A stretch of 64,000 bases of DNA from Streptomyces marianii (lineage in GTDB: Bacteria; Actinomycetota; Actinomycetes; Streptomycetales; Streptomycetaceae): NCBI RefSeq assembly GCF_005795905.1, contig NZ_VAWE01000001.1, forward strand, positions 3,320,501 to 3,384,500. The letters run 5' to 3'. Of the stretch, positions 3,106-49,866 are shown piece after piece. Below the pieces are notes generated by a model, which saw nothing but the letters and a program-made list of their open reading frames with translations, ran no database searches and had not been told where the DNA came from. Both the position numbers and the translations under genes were made by a program. Positions within the stretch are counted from its first letter, which is position 1. The number at the start of each line of letters is the position of its first letter.

Positions 3106-3325
3106 GGTGCCTCCCGTCGCCCCCATTGGTCGGGCCCACACACTCGATTCTGTCCGCAGTCCCGGACTTCAGCCACCGCCTGTGGACAACACTCGGGCGA
3201 CCTGACGCGCGCAATACCGCATAACGGTCATATTTACTCCTAGTGTGACATTGCCCTTGCTCGTTCTGTCCACAGGACTTGCGCGTCACGTGCCCTTCGG
3301 CTATTGGGAAGGACGGCTCACCGCC

Positions 3326-4567
3326 ATGCCCGCAGATCTCGCCGTCATCGGACTCGGCCACCTCGGACTGCCCCTCGCCCAGGCCGCCGCGGCCGCGGGC
3401 ATCGGGACCATCGGCTACGACCCCGATCCCCGCCCCGCCGCCGAACTCGCCGCGGGCCGTCCGCCCGTGGACGGCTCCCTCAGCGCGTCGGAGATCCGCC
3501 GGATGCTCTCGGGGGGCTTCCGGCCCACCACCGACGCCGCCGAGCTGGGCCGGGTGCGCACCGCCGTCATCTGTGCGCCGACCCCCCTCGGCCCGGACCG
3601 CAGGCTCGATCTCACGGCGGTCGGTGCGGCCGCACGGGCGCTGGCCGCACGGCTTCGGCCGCACACCACCGTGCTGCTCGGGTCCCCGGTCGAGCCCGGC
3701 ACCACGGAGGGCTATCTGCGGACGATCCTCGAGGAGGGCTCGGGGCTGCGCGCGGGCGCCGACTTCCACCTGGCCTACTCCCCCGGCCGGCTCGACCCCG
3801 GCAACCGCGCCCACGGTCAGGCCAACACCCCTCAGGTGATCGGCGGCCTGACGCCGGCCTGCACCGAGTCGGCGGCGACCTTCTACAGCCGCGTCAGCGA
3901 CAAGGTGGTCCGCGCCCGCGGGCTGCGCGAGGCGGAGGCCGTCAAACTTCTGGAAACCAACTTCCGGCACGTCAACATCGCCCTGGTCAACGAGATGGCG
4001 GTGCTCTGCCACGACCTCGGCGTCGACCTGTGGGACGTCATCCGCTGCGCCGAGACCAAGCCGTTCGGGTTCCAGGCGTTCCGCCCCGGCCCCGGGGTGG
4101 GCGGGCACGGTCTCCCCGTCGACACGGTCGGCCCCCACCGCTCGCTGCGGCTCGTGGAGCTCGCTGACCAGATCAACGAACGCATGCCGAGTTACGTCGT
4201 CCAGCGCTGCGCGACCCTGCTGAACGAACACGGCAAGTCGGCCCGCGCCGCCCGGATCCTCCTCCTCGGCGTCACCTACAAGCCGGATCTCGCCGACCGG
4301 CAGGGCTCCCCCGCCCCGGAGATCGCGCACCGGCTGATGGAACTGGGCGCCTCGGTCGGCTACCACGACCCCTATGTGACGGACTGGCGTGTGAACGGCC
4401 GTCCCGTGCCCCGCGCCGACTCCCTGTACGAGGCCGCGGCAACCGCCGACCTCACCGTGTTGCTGCAGCACCACCGCACGTACGACCTGCAGGGACTGGC
4501 CGTCAAGGCACAGATCTTCCTGGACACCAGGGGAGCCTCCCCGGCGGGCGCGGCGCATCGTCTGTGA
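3326..4567 (+). CDS. UDP-glucose/GDP-mannose dehydrogenase family protein lacking the catalytic Cys
   Basis: 413 aa, similar in layout to WecC-type nucleotide-sugar dehydrogenases: N-terminal Rossmann motif IGLGHLGLP (about 8-16), central helix with KLLETNFRHVNIALVNE, and a C-terminal UDP-binding domain (GVTYKPDLADRQGSPA). In active members the loop GGxC(L/I)P supplies the thiohemiacetal cysteine. Here codon 4109-4111 is GGT, so the loop reads GVGGHGLPVD (Gly262). It may therefore be inactive as an oxidase, or do a partial reaction or a binding role. Start ATG 3326 is chosen just before the Rossmann fold; an in-frame GTG at 3245 is possible. Divergent from glpD. Confidence 0.8.
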   Translation: MPADLAVIGLGHLGLPLAQAAAAAGIGTIGYDPDPRPAAELAAGRPPVDGSLSASEIRRMLSGGFRPTTDAAELGRVRTAVICAPTPLGPDRRLDLTAVGAAARALAARLRPHTTVLLGSPVEPGTTEGYLRTILEEGSGLRAGADFHLAYSPGRLDPGNRAHGQANTPQVIGGLTPACTESAATFYSRVSDKVVRARGLREAEAVKLLETNFRHVNIALVNEMAVLCHDLGVDLWDVIRCAETKPFGFQAFRPGPGVGGHGLPVDTVGPHRSLRLVELADQINERMPSYVVQRCATLLNEHGKSARAARILLLGVTYKPDLADRQGSPAPEIAHRLMELGASVGYHDPYVTDWRVNGRPVPRADSLYEAAATADLTVLLQHHRTYDLQGLAVKAQIFLDTRGASPAGAAHRL

Positions 4568-39897: not shown

Positions 39898-39953
39898 GGC
39901 GGGCATTGTCACCGCAGGACATGCTCACGCCCAACCGGTTTAGGATGCGCGGC

Positions 39954-40826
39954 ATGAGCTTTGGGGGATCGCAGTGGCCGCAGGAGCCGCGGCAGCCGTA
40001 CGAGTCCTACGGAGAGCCTCCGTCGTCGACGCCCGACTGGGCGGCGCTGGCCGACGCCTCCGCCGCGCGGGCCCGCCGCAGGAGATGGCTGCTCATCGGG
40101 GCGGGCGGTGTCGCGACGGCAGCCGTCGCCGCGATCGTGGCCACGGCGGTCGTCTTCACCAACGACGCGTCGTCCTCCGGCAAGACCGCCGGTGACCTGC
40201 CCACGGCTCCCCAGCTGCCGAACGAGACCACACAGCCGGAGCCGTCGTTCTCGACGGTCGCTCCCCCGCCGCCGCCGAACCCCAAGGACTTCATCTCCAG
40301 CGCGAAGAAGGACACCGCGCCGCTGAGCGCCGACACCCTCTTCCCGGGGAAGAAGCTCACGATGGGCGACCGGGTCTACGCCAAGGGCCCCACGGCCCGC
40401 ACCACGAACTGCGCCTCCGCGACCCAGGCCTCGCTGGGCACGGCGCTCCGCTCGCACGGCTGCGACCAGGTCATCCGCGCCACGTACACCAAGGACGGCG
40501 TGGCCGTCACCATCGGCGTCGCCGTCTTCCCGACCGAGGCGCAGGCGCAGGCGGCCGTGAAGCAGTCCGCCCGCAGCATCGCCCCGCTCTCCGGCTCGGG
40601 CGTCGCCGCCTTCTGCAAGGGCGGGCCGGTGTGCCGCTTCGTGGGCAACTCCTACGGCCGGTACGCCTACTTCACCGCCACCGGCTACGTCAGCGGAAAG
40701 TCCGTCGCCAAGGGCGACAGCAAGGCGTTCCAGCCGGGCGACGACCTCGCGGAGTTCACGTTCCGCCAGATCGTGCGCCGCGGCGAGATGCAGGCGTCCG
40801 CGGCGGCCACGGCCCCGGCGGGCTGA
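39954..40826 (+). CDS. Membrane-anchored extracytoplasmic protein of unknown function
   Basis: 290 aa. Residues 1-45 are polar and Pro/Tyr/Gln-rich, then RARRRR and one transmembrane helix (WLLIGAGGVATAAVAAIVATAVVF, broken here into IGAGGVATAAVAAIVATAVV), a Thr/Pro-rich linker, and an outside domain with three or four Cys (TNCASATQ, HGCDQV, FCKGGPVCRF). ATG 39954 is 7 nt after TAGGAT, so probably leaderless. Divergent from the ABC-F gene. Confidence 0.75.
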   Translation: MSFGGSQWPQEPRQPYESYGEPPSSTPDWAALADASAARARRRRWLLIGAGGVATAAVAAIVATAVVFTNDASSSGKTAGDLPTAPQLPNETTQPEPSFSTVAPPPPPNPKDFISSAKKDTAPLSADTLFPGKKLTMGDRVYAKGPTARTTNCASATQASLGTALRSHGCDQVIRATYTKDGVAVTIGVAVFPTEAQAQAAVKQSARSIAPLSGSGVAAFCKGGPVCRFVGNSYGRYAYFTATGYVSGKSVAKGDSKAFQPGDDLAEFTFRQIVRRGEMQASAAATAPAG

Positions 40827-40890
40827 CGGCCGGGGCCGTTCCGGCACGGTCCCGGGCGCGGCCGACCACGCGGACGGGCGCCGGAACCGA

Positions 40891-40907
40891 CGGCGGTCCG
40901 GCCGCCG
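40891..40907. terminator. Small hairpin in a convergent gap
   Basis: CGGCGG-TCCGG-CCGCCG between the membrane protein gene and ugd; 6-bp stem, modest support. Confidence 0.4.
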
Positions 40908-41023
40908 CCCGGTGACCGCGTCGGCCCGGGTTCGCCCGGCGAGCCGTGCCTGACGCGAGAGCGGCCGTCACCGGCCTGCCGACGGTGTGCGCCCGACGCG
41001 CCCCGATCGCGGGGCGGCGGTCG

Positions 41024-42373
41024 TCATTCGGCACGCACGGCGGTCCCGGCCGAGCTGCGCGCAGGGCGGCCCAGCGCATGGAAGTCCCAGCCGGCGGCCA
41101 TCCAGCGGTCCGCGTCCAGCGCCCCTCGGCCGTCGACGATCCGGCGCGCGCGGACGCGGGAGGCGAGGGCCGCCGGGTCGAGGTCCCGGAACTCGCGCCA
41201 CTCGGTGAGGTGGAGCACCACATCGGCGTCCACCACCGCTTCCTCCGCCGACAGGGCGTAACCGAGCAGCGGGTGCGTCTTGCGCGCGTTGTCCATCGCC
41301 TGCGGGTCGTACACCGTGACATCGGCACCGTCCAGGTGGAGCCTGACGGCGATGTCCAGGGCGGGAGAGTCCCGGATGTCGTCGGAGTCCGGCTTGAAGG
41401 CCGCACCCAGTACGGCCACCCGGGCCCCCGCCGGATCCCCCGCGCACAACCGGCGCGTCAGGTCGACGACCCGGTCCCGGCGGCGCAGGTTCACCGCGTC
41501 GACCTCCTTGAGAAAGGCGAGGGAACGTCCGGTACCGAGCTCCTCGGCGCGGGCCGCGAAAGCCCGGATGTCCTTGGGCAGGCAGCCGCCGCCGAAGCCC
41601 ACGCCGGCCCGCAGGAAACGGGCCCCGATGCGCTCGTCGTGGCCGATCGCGGTGGCCAGTACGGACACGTCGGCACCGGTGGCCTCGCAGACCTCCGCCA
41701 TCGCGTTGATGAACGAGATCTTGGTCGCGAGGAAGGCGTTGGCGGCCGTCTTGACCAGCTCGGCCGTGGGGAAGTCGGCGGTGATCAGCGGGATCCCGGT
41801 GGCCAGGACGGGCGCGTAGACCTCCCGCAGCAGGGCCTCCGCCCGGTCCGAGCGGACTCCGAGGACCAGCCGGTCCGGCCGGAGGGTGTCCCGCACCGCG
41901 AAGCCCTCCCGCAGGAACTCCGGGTTCCAGGCGAGTTCGGCACCGGCTCCGGCGGGAGCCAGCGCCGCCAGCCGGGCGGCGAGCCGGTCCGCGGTGCCGA
42001 CGGGCACCGTGGACTTCCCGACGACCAGGGCGGGGCCGGTCAGATGCGGCGCCAGGGCGTCGATCACCGCGTCCACATAGGTCAGGTCGGCGGCGTCGGA
42101 GCCCCTGGACTGCGGCGTGCCGACACAGCTGAAATGGACCCGGGCGAAGGCCGCGGCCTCCTCGTACGACGTGGTGAAGCGCAGGCGGCCGGTGGCGATG
42201 TGCCGGTCGAGCAGCTCCTGGAGGCCGGGCTCGTAGAACGGGAGCCGCCCGGACCGCAGTGAGGCGATCTTGTCCGGGTCGATGTCGACACCGAGTACGT
42301 CGTGGCCGAGTTCGGCCATGCAGGCGGCGTGGGTGGCACCAAGGTAGCCGGTGCCGATGACGGTGAGGCGCAA
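41024..42373 (-). CDS. ugd: UDP-glucose 6-dehydrogenase
   Basis: 449 aa. Oxidises UDP-glucose to UDP-glucuronate with 2 NAD+. Rossmann GTGYLGATHAACMAELG, substrate helix VKTAANAFLATKISFINAMAEVC (broken: VKTAANAFLA, FINAMAEVC), and catalytic loop FGGGCLPKD with its Cys intact, unlike the homologue at 3326. It starts with TTG 42373, 8 nt after AAGGAG. Last gene of the exopolysaccharide operon, 49 bp after the GT-C gene. With galU it can supply UDP-glucuronate. Confidence 0.93.
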   Translation of the reverse strand: MRLTVIGTGYLGATHAACMAELGHDVLGVDIDPDKIASLRSGRLPFYEPGLQELLDRHIATGRLRFTTSYEEAAAFARVHFSCVGTPQSRGSDAADLTYVDAVIDALAPHLTGPALVVGKSTVPVGTADRLAARLAALAPAGAGAELAWNPEFLREGFAVRDTLRPDRLVLGVRSDRAEALLREVYAPVLATGIPLITADFPTAELVKTAANAFLATKISFINAMAEVCEATGADVSVLATAIGHDERIGARFLRAGVGFGGGCLPKDIRAFAARAEELGTGRSLAFLKEVDAVNLRRRDRVVDLTRRLCAGDPAGARVAVLGAAFKPDSDDIRDSPALDIAVRLHLDGADVTVYDPQAMDNARKTHPLLGYALSAEEAVVDADVVLHLTEWREFRDLDPAALASRVRARRIVDGRGALDADRWMAAGWDFHALGRPARSSAGTAVRAE

Positions 42374-42422
42374 CTGGCACTCTCCTTGATGTGATGCGGG
42401 TCGAGGGAACCCGGGGGACGGA

Positions 42423-44354
42423 TCAGTACCTGACCCAGATGCGGTAGGTGCCCTTGCCTTCGCCCAGCTCGAACGGGACGGTGCCGAGGAGCCGGTACCC
42501 GCCGCTCCGCTTCACCGCGTCCTCGACCACCTTCTCCATCCGCGGGGAGGCGACTCCGTCGAGGACGACGAGGTCGAACCAGCCGTCGGCGATGGCCTTG
42601 CGGTAGCCCGCCTCGCCGCGGTGCATCGTGCCCTGGGCGTCCTCGTAGCCGATTCCGTAGAGCGAGGTCCAGCGCGACTGGTCGGTGCGGTCCCGGAGGT
42701 AGTAGACGGGGACGTTCGGCGTGGAGGCGAGGTACCGGCCCTTGTCGCCGACGTGCTCGCGCAGCACCTGGTTCAGCTTGGTGGCGGAAGCCCACGAGGA
42801 GAAGCGTTCCTCCGACTGCGCCAGCCCCATGCAGAGCATCGAGACCCAGAGGATGATGCCCAGCTGCGGATAGCGGAAGTGCGCCCCGATCAGCCGGGTG
42901 ACGCCGATGCCCGCCATCGGGGCGGCGAAAAGCAGGCCGAACCCGATGTGCTTGTAGAGCGCCACGGACGTGGCGAGATGGACCTGGTACGCGGGCGCGA
43001 GCAGGGCGGTACCGCACAGGACCAGGCCGAGCAGCCCACGCCAGCGCCAGCCGGGGCCGCTCAGCCGGAGGGCGAGCGGAGACTCGTTCATCCGGCCGCG
43101 GCGGGCGTACGAGACGGCGCCACCGCAGGCGGTGGCGAACATCAGCCCGCCCCACAGGCCCGACTTCGCCAGCAGGGACAGGGCGGAGTCGGCGCCGTGC
43201 TCCCGTTCGGTGGTCGTGGCGCGCACGCCGTCCAGCACGTCCGTGAGGAACAGGCCTGCCGCGGCCAGCCCCGCCAGACCGACGGTCAGGAGCACGGCCC
43301 GGCCGAAGGCCCCGCGGCCCCGGTGGGGCCACGACGTCAGGAGCGCGAGTACGACGAGCGTGGGGAGGTAGAGCGCGGTGGCGTACTTGACGCCCACGGC
43401 GAGCACCGCGACCGGGGCGGCGAGCAGCACCGCGGCCGCCGGAGCCCGGTCCGTCCGGACCACGAGCCAGGTGGCGGCGGCGAGCAGGAAGATCGCGGCG
43501 GCGTCGTAGGTGGCGAAGAACCCGAGGACGACGGTGGACTGCGTCACGGCGAAGAGCGCGGCCGCGGCCAGTGCCGCGCGCTCGTTGAACAGCCGCCGGG
43601 TGAAGGAGTACAGCAGCGTGGTCGCGCCGAGCATGAACAGCAGGCTCAGCACCCGGGCGCCGGTGAGCCCGAACCGCCCGTCGACCGCCGCCGCCAGCAC
43701 CGGGTACAGCTGGGGCGATCCGGAGAAGTAGGACACGTAGTCGCTCGGCAGCGGGGCGCCGTTGAACAGGTGGTCCAGTTGGGCGTGACCGGCCGACAGA
43801 TACAGCGCCTCGTCCTGGAAGGCGGTGTTGGCGAGCCGCAGCGACAGCACCGCCTGGATCGCGAGCACACACAGCAGCAGGGCTCGGCTGACCCAGGAAC
43901 GCCGTCGGCTGCCCCCCATGTCCCAGCCCGCTTCGGGGGTCTCGGGAATCTCGTAGCCCTGCCCGGATTCCGTCTTCGGTTCGGACGCGGCGCGGGGTTC
44001 GGGCACGACGACGACCGCGGGATCGAGGGTGCGGAGCCCCTGGGTGACCTCGTCCTGCGGGATCTCCGTCGGCACCTGCACGGCGTACGATGGCACGGCG
44101 TAGCCCTCGTGCTGCTGGGGATGCACGATGTACGCCTGAGCCGTGTACACCTCGTCGGGGTACCCCTGCTGCCCGTAGTGCTCGGCGGGCCAGGTGCCGG
44201 CCGGCTGCGCGGGGGCGGCTCCCGGCGGTACCCCGGTGTCCGTCTGGAACCAGGCGAACTCGGAGTCGTCCCCGCGGTAGGCGTCGTAGGGCTCGTACCG
44301 TTCGGGGTGGTGGACATGACCGGTGTTCCGGCCCTGGGTGGGAGAGGTCATCAC
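42423..44354 (-). CDS. GT-C type membrane glycosyltransferase
   Basis: 643 aa. Residues 1-153 form a cytoplasmic tail rich in Tyr, Gln, Pro and Glu. The membrane part begins WVSRALLLCVLAIQAVL and has about 10 or more helices. The first external loop carries FQDEALYLSAG (Asp181-Glu182), the catalytic-type acidic motif of ArnT/PMT-like lipid-linked glycosyltransferases. A C-terminal soluble domain ends FELGEGKGTYRIWVRY. ATG 44354 overlaps the GH26 stop (ATGA). Likely adds or transfers sugars outside the membrane. Confidence 0.83.
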   Translation of the reverse strand: MMTSPTQGRNTGHVHHPERYEPYDAYRGDDSEFAWFQTDTGVPPGAAPAQPAGTWPAEHYGQQGYPDEVYTAQAYIVHPQQHEGYAVPSYAVQVPTEIPQDEVTQGLRTLDPAVVVVPEPRAASEPKTESGQGYEIPETPEAGWDMGGSRRRSWVSRALLLCVLAIQAVLSLRLANTAFQDEALYLSAGHAQLDHLFNGAPLPSDYVSYFSGSPQLYPVLAAAVDGRFGLTGARVLSLLFMLGATTLLYSFTRRLFNERAALAAAALFAVTQSTVVLGFFATYDAAAIFLLAAATWLVVRTDRAPAAAVLLAAPVAVLAVGVKYATALYLPTLVVLALLTSWPHRGRGAFGRAVLLTVGLAGLAAAGLFLTDVLDGVRATTTEREHGADSALSLLAKSGLWGGLMFATACGGAVSYARRGRMNESPLALRLSGPGWRWRGLLGLVLCGTALLAPAYQVHLATSVALYKHIGFGLLFAAPMAGIGVTRLIGAHFRYPQLGIILWVSMLCMGLAQSEERFSSWASATKLNQVLREHVGDKGRYLASTPNVPVYYLRDRTDQSRWTSLYGIGYEDAQGTMHRGEAGYRKAIADGWFDLVVLDGVASPRMEKVVEDAVKRSGGYRLLGTVPFELGEGKGTYRIWVRY

Positions 44355-45355
44355 GGCTTCCGTACGTCGAACCCGAACAGGTCATCCGCGGCCAGCCGGT
44401 TGAACTCGGCCAGCGCCAGCGGACTGGCGGACAGGCGCCAGTCGGCCCGCTTGCGGTAGTCGAACCAGACGAAGCCGACGATGTCGTCGTTGCCCTCGAC
44501 GCCGGCGAAGAGGTTCCGGACGTCGGCGCGACGGCGCTCCCCCGGGGCCGCCGCCGTCTCGACGATGATCAGCGGCTTCTTCGTCAGCGTCCCGATCTTC
44601 TCGATCGTCGGGCCGAAGACGCTCCCGAAGGCGTTGTCCTCATCCTGGGTGAAGTAGCCCACCATGCCCACCCAGTCGACATAGGCGTCTCCCGGGTAGT
44701 AGTCGGCGAGGTCCACGCTCCTGACCGGGTTGACGATGTTGGGCGTCCAGGTCCAGATCACGTTGGACGCACCGGCCTCGGTGAAGACGTCGTGCACGTG
44801 CCGCCACGCCTCGACGTAGTCGGCGGCGTCGACGTGCTTGGTGCCCCACTTCTCCCAGTGGCCGTTCATCTCGTCGGCAAAGCTGATCGCCACCGGCAGG
44901 TTCAGCTCCCGCACCGCGGCGGCGTACTTCTCGAGGTACGAGTCCGACTTGCCCGCGGCGATGTCGGCGAGCGGGACGTCGAAGGGCTCCCAGGACGTGA
45001 TCGTCAGGGCGCCGGACTTCCAGGCGTTACGGACACCGCTGGCGTTGAACCCGTCGCCGAAGGCCACGTAGTACTCGATCAGGTTGGGCTGCTTGCCCGT
45101 CTGGGCCGTGAACTTCTCCACGGACGCCATGGAGGTCGGGGCCCCCTCCAGCGCCGCGCCGAAGTACTTCTTCTCCGGCTTGATCAGCGGCCGGACGTCG
45201 AACGGGAGGTCGGCGGCGGAGTCCGCGGGGGCGGTGGTGGAGGAGCCGGCCGACGGCGTGCCGTCGTCGTCGGTGAGGGAACAGCCGACGGTGCCGAGCA
45301 GCAGCATCGCCGTCAGGGCGGCGCACAGCGACGTGGAACGGAAACGGGAGATCAT
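44351..45355 (-). CDS. GH26-like glycoside hydrolase lipoprotein
   Basis: 334 aa. Signal peptide with Cys25 (LLLGTVGC), so probably a lipoprotein. The (beta/alpha)8 domain has SFADEMNGHWEKWG (acid/base Glu162) and IIVETAAAPG (nucleophile Glu266), with WTWTPN between, the GH26 endo-beta-mannanase pattern. It could trim or release the polymer made by the adjacent synthase, as BcsZ-type hydrolases do in cellulose operons. Overlaps both neighbours by 4 bp. Confidence 0.83.
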   Translation of the reverse strand: MISRFRSTSLCAALTAMLLLGTVGCSLTDDDGTPSAGSSTTAPADSAADLPFDVRPLIKPEKKYFGAALEGAPTSMASVEKFTAQTGKQPNLIEYYVAFGDGFNASGVRNAWKSGALTITSWEPFDVPLADIAAGKSDSYLEKYAAAVRELNLPVAISFADEMNGHWEKWGTKHVDAADYVEAWRHVHDVFTEAGASNVIWTWTPNIVNPVRSVDLADYYPGDAYVDWVGMVGYFTQDEDNAFGSVFGPTIEKIGTLTKKPLIIVETAAAPGERRRADVRNLFAGVEGNDDIVGFVWFDYRKRADWRLSASPLALAEFNRLAADDLFGFDVRKP

Positions 45356-46956
45356 GCCGCGCTCTCCTGACGGGGCTGGATGAGCACGCGGCCGACGACC
45401 AGCGCGTAGAAGAGGCCGGACGAGAGGATGAGAGCGAAGTCCGGCGCGTCCATGGAGAACATCCGCCACACGGCCGCGGCGACCCAGATCACCGCCGTCC
45501 CCCCGCCCCAGACCCACATGCCGATCCAGAAGCGGCGGGTCTTGTTCTTCTTGGCCCCGGAGGAGCCGGTCGGCTGCCAGCCCATCCGGTTCTTGCGCAG
45601 GATGTCCCAGATGGCGAAGACGTGCGCCCAGCCGTACATCATGCGGGCGGCCCAGGCCTCCAGCCGGTAGGGCGCACGATGCCACATCGGGAAGATCACC
45701 GTCGTGTAGACGATGCTCGGCAGCACCAGCCACAGGTGCTCGACCTTCAGCTTCTCCGGCATGGCCAGCAGCAGCACGATCGGGATGATCGGCGCGGCAA
45801 ACGTGAAGAGCGCGGTGTGGATGTAGTAGAAGAAGCCGGACATGTAGCAGAGCCGGGTCGACAACCTGAGCTTCGACCGCCAGAACTTGCTGCTGCCCAG
45901 GAGGCTCATCGAGCCGGAACACCAGCGGTACTGCTGGTTGAAGAACGCGCCGGCGCTGTCCGGGCAGACGCCCGTGGACACCGCCACCGGCACATAGCGC
46001 AGGTCCCAGCCCAGCTCGCGCAGGTCGTACCCGGTGTGGACGTCCTCGGAGTGCTCGATCAGCGTGGTACCGCCGTTGGTCTCCAGAGCGGCCCTGCGGT
46101 AGACGGCGCAGCTGCCGACGCAGATGGAGCCGTCGCTGCCCTGCCGCGACACCTGCACGGAGCGGTAGAAGAGCTCCTGCACCGCACCCGCGCCCCGTTC
46201 GATCCAGTTCTGGGAGTCCAGGACCCGGAAGTACTGCGGGGACTGGACGATCCCGACCCGCTCGTCCGCCTCCATATAGGGGAGGAGCTCCTCCAGCAGG
46301 TCGGCACGCGGCGTGAAGTCCGCATCCAGGATGAGGATGTACTTGCCGTCCGACTGGCCGAAACCGAAGTGCAGGTTGCCGGCCTTCTTGTACCAGCCGC
46401 GGTTGGGACGGGTGCCGTACCGGAAGCCGAAGTCTGCCGCCATGGCCTTGAGTTCCGGGCTGGCACCGTCGTCCAGGACGAAGGGGACGCAGACGCCCGG
46501 GTAGCGGTCGGCGAGAGCCCGAACGTGGGTCCAGGTGTTGTGCAGAACCTCGATCGGCTCGCCGCAGACGGGCAGGAAGACGTCGACGGTCGGGTACACC
46601 TCGGGCCGCCACCGCCGGACCAGTTGCCGGTGGTGCTTGATGTCGAAGTCCCGGGTGAACGCGTTCACCCGGAGCGACACCAGGTAGTAGAGAACCGTGA
46701 AGAGCAGCAGCGGCGTGTAGATCCACAACAGCGGAGTCGACTGCGCCAACTTGAACTGACTGACCGTGAGGCAGCAGAAGCTCACCAGCGAACTGAGGGT
46801 GAGTACCCAGAGATGCCGCTTGGCGTATGCGTACTTCTCGGTCTCCGTGGGCGGCAGCGGCAGCAGTCCGAGGCTGCTCTCCCCCTGCCCCGCCCTCCTC
46901 CGGCCACGCTGTCGCCCCCGCCGTCCGGACACCCGGACCGGGTTCACTGCACTCAT
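45352..46956 (-). CDS. Cellulose-synthase-like family 2 glycosyltransferase
   Basis: 534 aa processive synthase. Basic N-terminus (RGRQRGRRR), two helices at about 48-95, the GT-A domain with Asp162-Asp163 (LDDGAS), Asp211-x-Asp213 (LDADF), Glu304-Asp305 (HSEDVHTGYD) and Q-Q-x-R-W at 341-345, then four or five helices. Such enzymes polymerise UDP-sugars while extruding the chain. No PilZ domain is visible. First gene of the operon; ATG 46956 with GGGGGAG upstream. Confidence 0.9.
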   Translation of the reverse strand: MSAVNPVRVSGRRGRQRGRRRAGQGESSLGLLPLPPTETEKYAYAKRHLWVLTLSSLVSFCCLTVSQFKLAQSTPLLWIYTPLLLFTVLYYLVSLRVNAFTRDFDIKHHRQLVRRWRPEVYPTVDVFLPVCGEPIEVLHNTWTHVRALADRYPGVCVPFVLDDGASPELKAMAADFGFRYGTRPNRGWYKKAGNLHFGFGQSDGKYILILDADFTPRADLLEELLPYMEADERVGIVQSPQYFRVLDSQNWIERGAGAVQELFYRSVQVSRQGSDGSICVGSCAVYRRAALETNGGTTLIEHSEDVHTGYDLRELGWDLRYVPVAVSTGVCPDSAGAFFNQQYRWCSGSMSLLGSSKFWRSKLRLSTRLCYMSGFFYYIHTALFTFAAPIIPIVLLLAMPEKLKVEHLWLVLPSIVYTTVIFPMWHRAPYRLEAWAARMMYGWAHVFAIWDILRKNRMGWQPTGSSGAKKNKTRRFWIGMWVWGGGTAVIWVAAAVWRMFSMDAPDFALILSSGLFYALVVGRVLIQPRQESAA

Positions 46957-47228
46957 CTGAAGACTCCCCCGGGCCCCTACCCGTCATCCCCCATGGAACC
47001 CGGCACCTCCATCGTTTGAACACGACGGTGAACAAAATGCCGAGCTTCGGAAGGGTACACGATTCTTTAGGACACAGGTGAAAGTTACGTTTCAGTACAC
47101 CCGATGCCTATAAGCGGACTAATACCGACATCTGGCGGGTGAGTCACCTCCTCGACCTTCTACGATGTGTCTTCCATGTGAAGAAGACGAGGAGGGGGAC
47201 GGTCGCGCGAGCGGCCGTGCACAGACAT
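46957..47228. promoter_or_regulatory. Divergent control region, exopolysaccharide operon / galU
   Basis: 272 bp with an AT-rich core. Inverted repeat TGAAA-N6-TTTCA at 47079-47094 lies centrally. On the plus strand TATAAG (47112-47117) with a weak TTACGT 18 nt upstream could be the galU promoter. No minus-strand promoter stands out. Confidence 0.45.
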
Positions 47229-48137
47229 ATGAGCCTTCACACAACCGGCGTGCCGCCGGTGGTCAAGGCGGTCATTCCGGCCGCCGGACTCGGTACCCGC
47301 TTCCTTCCCGCGACCAAGGCGACGCCGAAGGAGATGCTGCCCGTCGTGGACAAGCCCGCGATCCAGTACGTGGTCGAGGAGGCCGCCGCCGCCGGTCTGA
47401 CCGACGTACTGATGATCACCGGGCGGAACAAGCGGGCGCTCGAGGACCACTTCGACCGCGCCCACGAGCTGGAATCGCTCCTGGAGGACAAGGGAGACCT
47501 CGGGCGACTGGAACTGGTCCGCAGATCCAGTTCACTGGCCACCGTCCACTACGCGCGGCAGGGCGACCCCAAGGGCCTCGGTCACGCCGTGCTCTGCGCC
47601 GAGGCGCATGTGGGGGACAGCCCTTTCGCCGTCCTGCTCGGCGACGACCTCATCGACCCCAGGGACCCCCTGCTCGCGCGGATGGTCGAGATACGCCGGC
47701 GGCTCGGCGGGAGCGTCGTCGCGCTGATGCCCGTCCCGGAGGACCGGATCCATCTCTACGGCTCGGCCGCCGTGGTCCCCTCGGAGGCCGGGGACGACGT
47801 GCGCGTGCTCTCCGGTCTCGTCGAGAAGCCGGCGCCCGGCACAGCGCCGAGCAACCTCGCGGTCATCGGCCGCTATGTCCTCGACCCCGAGATCTTCGCC
47901 GTGCTGCGGGACACCCCCCCGGGCCGCGGCGGGGAGATCCAGCTCACCGACGCGCTGCACACCCTCGCCTCGGACGACCGCCACGGACCCGTGCACGGCG
48001 TGGTCTTCGAAGGCCGCCGGTATGACACGGGCGACCGGGGCGACTACCTGCGCGCCCAGGTGCGCCTCGCCTGTGAGCACCCCGAGCTCGGGCCGTCCTT
48101 CACCGGCTGGCTGCGGAAGTACGCCGCCGCGCTCTGA
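47229..48137 (+). CDS. galU: UTP-glucose-1-phosphate uridylyltransferase
   Basis: 302 aa. Makes UDP-glucose from UTP and glucose-1-phosphate. Nucleotide motif IPAAGLGTRFLPATKATPKEML (shortened: AGLGTRFLPATKA), then VEEAAAAGLTDVLMITG and GEIQLTDALHTL. ATG 47229 gives the usual GalU length, but no ribosome site precedes it; in-frame GTG 47217 is an alternative. Divergent from the operon whose ugd uses its product. Confidence 0.93.
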   Translation: MSLHTTGVPPVVKAVIPAAGLGTRFLPATKATPKEMLPVVDKPAIQYVVEEAAAAGLTDVLMITGRNKRALEDHFDRAHELESLLEDKGDLGRLELVRRSSSLATVHYARQGDPKGLGHAVLCAEAHVGDSPFAVLLGDDLIDPRDPLLARMVEIRRRLGGSVVALMPVPEDRIHLYGSAAVVPSEAGDDVRVLSGLVEKPAPGTAPSNLAVIGRYVLDPEIFAVLRDTPPGRGGEIQLTDALHTLASDDRHGPVHGVVFEGRRYDTGDRGDYLRAQVRLACEHPELGPSFTGWLRKYAAAL

Positions 48138-48152
48138 CCGGCCGTGACGTTC

Positions 48153-48189
48153 GGAGGGCCGGCCGTTCCCCCCGGGGTGCCGGCCCTCC
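48153..48189. terminator. Bidirectional terminator galU / truA
   Basis: Perfect 11-bp stem (48153-48163 with 48179-48189) and a 15-nt loop between convergent genes. Confidence 0.8.
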
Positions 48190-48235
48190 CTCGGCGGCAC
48201 CGGGTGGAGGTGCGCACGGCCGAGCTGCCGCAGGC

Positions 48236-49105
48236 TCAGCAGCAGCCGGCCGCCCCCGCGCCCCGGGCCGGGAGGGTGCGCCGGTTCCGCGCCTCCAGGT
48301 TCCTGGCGGCCAGCAGTTCGTCGGCGGGATAGCCGACTTCCTCCAGCGTGAGCCCGTGCGGCCGCACGACGTGGACCGCCGAGTCACGGACACCGGCGGC
48401 CAGGACCTTCGCCGGCCAGTCCGCCGGCCGGTGGCCGTCGCCGACGAACAGCATCGCGCCGACGAGCGAGCGGACCATGTTGTGGCAGAAGGCGTCGGCC
48501 TTCACGGTCGCGGTCAGGATCCCGGACGCGTCGCGCTCCCAGCGCAGTTCCTGGAGCGTCCGGATGGTGGTGGCCCCCTCGCGCTTCTTGCAGTACGCGG
48601 CGAAGTCGTGCTCCCCGAGGAGCCGTCCGGCCGCGGCGTTCATGGCGTCCAGGTCCAGCGGCCAGCCGTGCCAGAGCACATGCCCGCGCAACAGCGGGTC
48701 GACGCCCGCCGGGTGGTCGGTGACGCGGTAGGCGTAGCGGCGCCAGACCGCCGAGAAGCGCGCGTTGAAACCGGCGGGGGCCTCCTCGGCCTTCCACACC
48801 CGGACGTCGTGGGGCAGCCGGCCGGCCAGCCGCCGCAGCAGCTTCTCCCGGTGCTCGGCCCAGACATGCTGCGGCAGGTCGACGTGCGCGACCTGTCCGC
48901 GGGCGTGCACACCCGCGTCCGTGCGGCCGGCGACGGTCAGCTCGTACGTGTCCTGTGAACGGGTGACGGTACGGATCGCGTCCTCGATCTCGCCCTGGAC
49001 CGTCCGCTGCCCGCGCGTCTGCCGGGCCCAGCCCGAGAAGTCCCCGCCGTCGTAGGACAGGTCCAGCCGCACCCGTACGAAACCCGGCCTCACGTCATCG
49101 CTCAC
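48236..49105 (-). CDS. truA: tRNA pseudouridine(38-40) synthase TruA
   Basis: 289 aa. [14 protein letters not shown], then catalytic Asp in [14 protein letters not shown], then [17 protein letters not shown] 49105. The last 20 residues (about [12 protein letters not shown]) extend beyond the usual end and close with Cys-Cys. Last gene of the ribosomal super-cluster, 98 bp after rplQ. Confidence 0.95.
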
Positions 49106-49713: not shown

Positions 49714-49866
49714 GGTTCTTCTCCTTGTGATCTGCACCGGCCGTGTCAGGTACCGGTGTCAGCCTGTGCGAGAGGCTCACGCCCCTCGCGCACCCCCCGG
49801 CGGTGCCGGGGACATCTGTGCCGGGCTCGCGCCCGGAGCCCGGGGCCGCGGCCCCGGAGGCAGCCC

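Follow-up and report, generated by a model that had tools for sequence, protein, structure and literature searches.

Surface glycans of Streptomyces affect pellet formation, attachment and tip growth, and the two synthase systems encountered in the papers cited here are cslA-glxA and matAB. Here, we describe a further locus, found in a 64-kb stretch of the 9.0-Mb genome of Streptomyces marianii (the window, to which positions refer). Its cassette consists of genes for a GT2 glycosyltransferase, a GH26 glycoside hydrolase and a GT-C glycosyltransferase, followed by ugd, all on the minus strand, and a divergent galU on the plus strand (Table 1). The original prediction, made from the letters of this DNA, proposed a role in exopolysaccharide synthesis. 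This role is supported by the present analysis, and the cassette is very probably an exopolysaccharide synthase locus. On balance, we favour an accessory synthase-dependent locus of Streptomyces and related actinomycetes that makes a decorated mixed-linkage (1,3;1,4)-beta-glucan.

According to the available excerpts of the papers cited here, cellulose loci carry a cognate endoglucanase, BcsZ (GH8) or CcsZ (GH5) (PMC7710045), and the Streptomyces cslA-glxA-cslZ system has the partner glucanase CslZ (PMC11022532). Like BcsA(-BcsB-BcsZ) and clostridial CcsZABHI, the S. marianii locus pairs a BcsA-type GT2 gene with a putative endo-glucanase gene. It differs from them in the family of this hydrolase (GH26, or GH5 in two related loci), in the lack of PilZ, in the additional GT-C and ugd, and in that no BcsB-like or O-acetylation genes were seen among the five cassette genes. 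It shares with cslA-glxA-cslZ the genus, the synthase superfamily and the partner glucanase, but no radical copper oxidase gene adjoins the GT2, and the host carries both systems. Romboutsia RiGT2, which has D,D,D,QxxRW and a C-terminal PilZ domain (PMC10374906), and Sinorhizobium BgsA (PMC5567048) are bacterial (1,3;1,4)-beta-glucan synthases. D,D,D,QxxRW is common to RiGT2 and the GT2 studied here, and a mixed-linkage product is proposed for the latter. PilZ is missing here, unlike in RiGT2, and the excerpts mention no GH26, GT-C or ugd partners for RiGT2 or BgsA. CtLic26A (EndoH) of Clostridium thermocellum is the closest solved relative of the GH26, with the catalytic glutamates aligned; however, it is a polysaccharide-degrading enzyme, whereas the GH26 lies in a biosynthetic locus. 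Finally, Gtr systems comprise a GtrB synthase, a GtrA flippase and a GT-C (PMC11127046), and many related loci carry, besides the GT-C, a DPM1/GtrB-like gene and sometimes GtrA. Unlike in Gtr systems, the proposed acceptor is a synthase-extruded beta-glucan, and the window locus has the GT-C alone.

In the open-licence literature of PubMed Central (subscription papers and preprints lie outside this scope), no recognisable description of a GT2-GH26-GT-C locus in actinomycetes was found. The locus was originally put forward as a candidate for an undescribed system, and within this literature no assignment of it to a characterised polymer was recognised. The Actinoplanes wps-1 cluster, which has a GH26, was considered and rejected as the same system, as the excerpt describes a Wzx/Wzy cluster (PMC13390465). 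Because no literature description was found and synthase loci with endoglucanases are known, we file the locus as a variant of synthase-dependent exopolysaccharide loci with a predicted product. It is shared between genomes but seems to be unstudied.

Related loci were collected by a GT2 scan of genome contigs, in which the best 80 of 89 confirmed places gave 79 distinct loci. These were picked by similarity to the window GT2 and are therefore biased to close relatives, and each query gene was counted on its own. GH26 lies downstream of GT2 in all 79 loci, GT-C in 74 and ugd in 38. The five loci without a downstream GT-C include L054, with a short match (27% of the query); in L074, L075 and L078 the GT-C is upstream instead. 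The conserved unit is GT2-GH26-GT-C. A five-gene order across Streptomyces, as first envisaged, does not hold as a conserved unit, given the counts for ugd and galU (1/79), and the part that stands is GT2-GH26, mostly with GT-C. The galU gene was rejected as a conserved cassette member: the one related locus that has it (L007) carries it after ugd, and a galU between truA and GT2 is confined to the window.

We searched 199 evenly drawn Streptomyces genomes, the host included, with GT2 at a threshold of 1e-40. Matches were found in 43 genomes, of which 26 carry close copies (27 in total, 63-100% identity) and 17 a distant GT2 (40-42%). GH26 matches number 32 in 31 of the 199 genomes. A GH26 gene follows 25 of the 27 close GT2 copies at a distance of -1 to 113 bp and stands beside none of the 17 distant ones; the pairing in the close copies is therefore not due to chance. 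In a draw of 396 genomes across the phylum, with at most three first-look candidates scored per genome, five gave a match to the GT2 profile at 1e-60; in G056, this match is due solely to a GT2 of 42% identity. This adjacency and the few phylum matches mark GT2-GH26 as a narrow but tightly linked pair. The pairwise distances of GT2, GH26 and GT-C correlate (r 0.76-0.89), as linked inheritance alone would produce. The cassette had been suspected to be accessory, and its presence in 26 of 199 genomes agrees with this. It adds a further accessory synthase locus in approximately 13% of the sampled Streptomyces.

The GT2 is predicted to be a BcsA/CesA-type membrane synthase without PilZ. Its best PDB match in a profile search is BcsA (expect value, E, 4e-43), which also tops the Foldseek and VIA-align lists obtained with an AlphaFold model (predicted local distance difference test score, pLDDT, 80.7). 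In this model, a GT-A domain is set inside a transmembrane channel. The D, DxD, TED/SED and QxxRW motifs of processive BcsA/CesA-type GT2 enzymes, whose roles are described in the excerpt of PMC10374906, are all present; D162/D163, D211/D213, S303-E304-D305 and QQYRWC (341-346) are invariant in 79/79 aligned rows, window included. The fold and these motifs are observed; the sugar and linkage are predicted. The Pfam scan found no PilZ domain in the protein, which stops shortly past its last predicted helix, and the score against the BcsA/CelA equivalog TIGR03030 is 162.1 bits (cut-off 699.1). The PgaC/IcaA equivalog model gives 37.7 bits against a cut-off of 422.3, on which ground an assignment as a poly-N-acetylglucosamine synthase (matAB/PgaC) was rejected. 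The proposed distinction from matAB thus holds for the synthase, to which this comparison is limited. An assignment to cslA was rejected as well: the single PF09118 (GlxA-type) match of the genome lies approximately 2 Mb away beside another GT2, the CslA candidate, which is 28% identical to the GT2 studied here. With a cslA-glxA candidate elsewhere in the same genome, the predicted difference from that system is also confirmed.

The GH26 is predicted to be of the lichenase (CtLic26A) type and to have lichenase activity. PF02156 scores 49.9 bits (cut-off 20.2). CtLic26A is the nearest solved relative (E 7e-50, approximately 25% identity; the next GH26 at 5e-15), and four comparisons based on sequence, profile and fold all place it well ahead of mannanases and xylanases. 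E162 and E266 are invariant in 78/78 aligned rows and align with both catalytic glutamates of CtLic26A, which we take to be the acid/base and nucleophile residues of GH26. The preceding histidine is replaced by aspartate in 42 of the 78 rows, window included. Inspection by eye revealed a signal- and lipobox-like N-terminus with a slightly non-canonical GTVGC, and the GH26 is a probable surface protein. A mannanase assignment was rejected on the strength of the four comparisons. As a separate observation, two Actinocorallia loci (L059 and L060) have three GH26 matches each.

Alternative partner hydrolases provide a further clue to the product. In 8 of the 79 loci, none of which has truA on the stretch, a GH12 domain is encoded divergently from GT2. 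Pfam identified it in L036 and L052, both of which also have a ricin-type lectin domain, and domain-only tblastn (59-73% identity) in the others. The two close GT2 copies without an adjacent GH26 (G125 and G033:C28, 66-69% identical to the window GT2) each adjoin a GH5 gene, which is oriented divergently in one case and convergently in the other; the top PDB match of both GH5 proteins is Endoglucanase E-5. In the 199 genomes, every one of the 27 close copies is thus adjacent to a gene of glucanase type, GH26 in 25 cases and GH5 in two. For the distant GT2, a sister type occurring in 17/199 genomes, the next gene encodes an acyltransferase-SGNH protein fused to a C-terminal GH16 1,3-beta-glucanase in all four cases examined (E 4e-89 for the GH16 domain in L158). 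These partners favour a beta-glucan product and, together with the lichenase-type GH26, a mixed linkage. Of the predicted beta-linked hexose and glucuronate, the hexose stands and can be specified further as a beta-glucan, probably of mixed linkage, because the GH26 is lichenase-like and the alternative partners belong to beta-glucanase families. The sister loci (L158, 7039-11889, and L159-L161; genomes G005, G056, G012 and G074) may represent another beta-glucan locus of Streptomyces, one with O-acylation.

The remaining genes point to decoration of the polymer. The GT-C scores above the cut-off of PMT_2 (PF13231) and has no PDB match by sequence at 0.01; E182 is conserved in 70/70 and D181 in 54/70 aligned rows. 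The ugd product belongs, by family, to the UDP-glucose (uridine diphosphate glucose) 6-dehydrogenases and would supply UDP-glucuronate. Models for UDP-glucose dehydrogenases (TuaD and AglM) outscore those for UDP-N-acetylmannosamine (UDP-ManNAc) dehydrogenases, all below equivalog cut-offs. The genome encodes six nucleoside diphosphate-sugar dehydrogenases above cut-off, so that ugd has family members elsewhere. One further nucleotide-sugar dehydrogenase gene lies in the window at 3245-4567 (+; TIGR03026, 324 bits); here the UDP-ManNAc models outscore the UDP-glucose ones.

A DPM1/GtrB-like gene, a homologue of polyprenyl-phosphate-sugar synthases, is found in 43 of the 79 loci and GtrA in 13. 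The former accompanies ugd in 36 of the 38 ugd loci, the other two being L007 (which has galU, like the window) and L037, and occurs without ugd in seven. By analogy with the excerpted description in PMC11127046, the GT-C, DPM1-like protein and GtrA of related loci are predicted to be parts of a three-component extracytoplasmic glycosylation system. Searching the 199 Streptomyces genomes for DPM1-like genes at 1e-62 yielded 45 matches in 44 genomes. Of these matches, 22 are at least 74% identical: 18 are located no more than 9 kb from GT2, and the other four come from genomes that lack a close GT2. None of the remaining 23 (54-66%) is near a close GT2. The window locus has neither a DPM1-like gene nor GtrA, the search for GtrA having covered the locus itself, and two DPM1-like homologues, approximately 47% identical, are encoded elsewhere in the host genome. 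A different arrangement was seen in Streptomyces albiflavescens (L028, 2209-17248), where two tandem GT2-GH26-GT-C cassettes follow truA and differ in GT-C type (62% and 42% identical to the window GT-C).

A mechanism can be proposed from these parts. GalU and Ugd, judged by their families, would supply UDP-glucose and UDP-glucuronate. The GT2 would polymerise UDP-glucose into a beta-glucan with beta-1,4 and probably beta-1,3 bonds and move the chain across the membrane. By analogy with BcsZ and CcsZ of cellulose systems, the GH26, whose similarity to lichenase is observed, would trim, release or proof-read the chain. Outside the membrane, the GT-C would attach a side sugar from a polyprenyl-phosphate donor. 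A candidate donor synthase (DPM1/GtrB/ArnC-like) and sometimes a GtrA flippase are encoded in the same cassette in most ugd loci; for the window, other regions of the genome would have to provide them. Glucuronate is a candidate side sugar, and rhizobial Rgt enzymes, which use polyprenyl-phosphate-galacturonate, set a precedent for a donor of uronic acid. The resulting polymer of the hyphal surface would be a mixed-linkage beta-glucan with anionic or other decoration, and would probably resemble the mixed-linkage beta-glucan of cereals. A beta-glucan backbone is likely, its mixed linkage has an even chance, and a glucuronate side chain is possible though doubtful. The most specific version is rather unlikely: an anionic cereal-like hemicellulose made by a BcsB-less CesA-type synthase with a cognate GH26 lichenase and a lipid-linked GT-C adding a sugar outside the cell from polyprenyl-phosphate-glucuronate, itself formed from the product of Ugd. 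If true, one compact cassette would combine a synthase-dependent with a Gtr-type pathway, and nature would provide an example of a synthase-made beta-glucan to which a lipid-linked system adds side chains; this may be useful for producing soluble beta-glucans. Since the hydrolase predicts the product, a direct biochemical question is whether an actinomycete makes mixed-linkage beta-glucan.

Some observations weigh against this preferred product. No feature proves beta-1,3 bonds, the GH5 and GH12 partners fit a plain beta-1,4-glucan equally, and a phosphomannose isomerase-like gene is present in each GT2 locus of Actinocorallia L059 and L060 (by Pfam on one and by clustering for the other). The first two would suit a GT2 that makes plain cellulose like CslA-GlxA or Ccs, with the GH26 as a beta-1,4-glucan trimmer that is lichenase-like by chance. 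The GT2 is indeed nearest to bacterial cellulose synthases, and endoglucanase-type partners occur elsewhere, including at both GH26-less loci. We nevertheless regard cellulose as unlikely: the CelA equivalog is missed by far, CtLic26A is titled lichenase in structure entries, the sister synthase is partnered by a GH16 1,3-beta-glucanase domain, and the genome already holds a cslA-glxA candidate. The isomerase genes would instead fit a beta-mannan or glucomannan with the GH26 as an endo-beta-mannanase, as would the names 'beta-mannanase' and 'mannan endo-1,4-beta-mannosidase' given to some GH26 homologues in source annotations, and the GH26 enzymes in PDB match lists are mostly mannanases. Such a polymer is quite improbable, as mannanases fall far below CtLic26A in every GH26 comparison, precursor supply is encoded here by galU and ugd rather than by genes for guanosine diphosphate (GDP)-mannose, and the alternative partners are GH12, endoglucanase-type GH5 and GH16.

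Two further explanations concern the sugar-supply and decoration genes. Streptococcal hasABC consists of a synthase, ugd and galU, and in the window ugd and galU likewise stand beside a GT2, so that a dual-specificity GT2 might make a hyaluronan-like or other glucuronate-containing backbone. This is the least probable of the readings considered, and the hasABC analogy was rejected: the GT2 profile search that found BcsA returned no hyaluronan synthase from the PDB at 1e-5, and the GT2 carries SED where hyaluronan synthases have a GDDR motif. In addition, ugd is absent from 41 and galU from 78 of the 79 loci, the partner hydrolases are beta-glucanase types, and GH26 and GT-C are additions to the hasABC set. 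Alternatively, GT-C, ugd and the donor synthase may belong to the pathway of another glycoconjugate (a protein, teichoic acid or glycolipid, for instance) and be mere neighbours of GT2-GH26; this is compatible with any backbone, and its probability, which we consider low, is not additive with the others. It would account for the loci that lack ugd (41/79) or the DPM1-like gene (36/79), and for the four close DPM1-like matches in genomes without a close GT2. On the other hand, GT-C overlaps GH26 in the window and lies downstream of GT2 in nearly all related loci, and the distances of the three proteins correlate, although linked inheritance suffices for the latter.

The layout of the cassette was read from open reading frames with Pfam and NCBIfam models, and the predicted gene identities and operon-like overlaps were borne out by family models and coordinates. 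GT2 and GH26 overlap by 4 bp (45352-45355), as do GH26 and GT-C (44351-44354), and GT-C and ugd are separated by 49 bp. Ribosome-binding-like sequences were seen by eye upstream of GT2, GH26 and ugd, the last of which has a TTG start preceded by AAGGAG. The region between GT2 and galU has no sigma-70-type consensus, and a promoter and terminator scan of 40700-48300 gave no match. The G+C content of the cassette (69.7%) is near that of the whole window (70.8%), so its composition shows no sign of recent foreign DNA. A second galU elsewhere in the genome (74% identical) makes the one here an extra copy. As this homologue aligns only from residue 37, an ATG at approximately 47229 is a likelier galU start than the GTG at 47139.

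Table 1. Features of the exopolysaccharide cassette and its flanks in the window
Feature	Position	Strand	Description
up306 (flanking resident gene)	39906-40826	+	Weakly similar to PknH_C and CU044_5270, neither above cut-off
ugd	41024-42373	-	449 aa; TIGR03026, 424 bits
GT-C	42423-44354	-	643 aa; PMT_2 PF13231, E 3e-10; also PF02366
GH26	44351-45355	-	334 aa; PF02156, E 4e-13
GT2	45352-46956	-	534 aa; Glyco_trans_2_3/CelA-like
GT2/galU divergent intergenic region	46957-47138	.	182 bp; presumed promoter region
galU	47139-48137	+	TIGR01099, 325.8 bits (cut-off 326.8, one bit short)
truA (flanking gene at the other edge of the site)	48236-49105	-	TIGR00071 above cut-off

The cassette is accessory and is found most often at the truA-rplM site, in agreement with the position originally noted. 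In the window it occupies the truA/up306 junction, and truA is on the fetched stretch in 50 of the 79 related loci, nearly all in the same order. Sixteen comparison genomes were chosen for the absence of a close GT2. In 13 of them, up306 and rplM both lie beyond truA, and in 11 of these 13 the first recognised gene past truA is up306, at a distance of no more than approximately 0.3 kb; the cassette-free genomes examined thus mostly keep truA-up306-rplM. Approximately 3.4 kb separate truA and up306 in G018, and a DPM1-like gene lies between them in G023. In G012, rplM was seen and up306 gave no match, and for G007 and G009 the stretch fetched yielded truA alone. As a resident of the empty site, up306 was rejected as a cassette gene; so was a GT87 gene near rplM, which adjoins rplM in two cassette-free genomes too.

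Other genes were noted at this site and elsewhere in the window. Seven Streptomyces loci (L025, L029, L055, L056, L063, L065 and L076) encode a protein of approximately 1470-1570 amino acids between truA and GT2. In L025, the sole member of this group (cluster 27) that was scanned, it has immunoglobulin-like domains of the ASH/HYDIN type. A pectate-lyase-like protein is also encoded upstream of the cassette in L023, L025, L029, L063 and L065. Near the additional dehydrogenase gene at 3245-4567, six other long open reading frames have no Pfam match at 1e-5, and some are possibly in the wrong frame. An L17 ribosomal protein leader (Rfam RF03132, 65.1 bits) is located 5' of rplQ at 49732-49789 (-).

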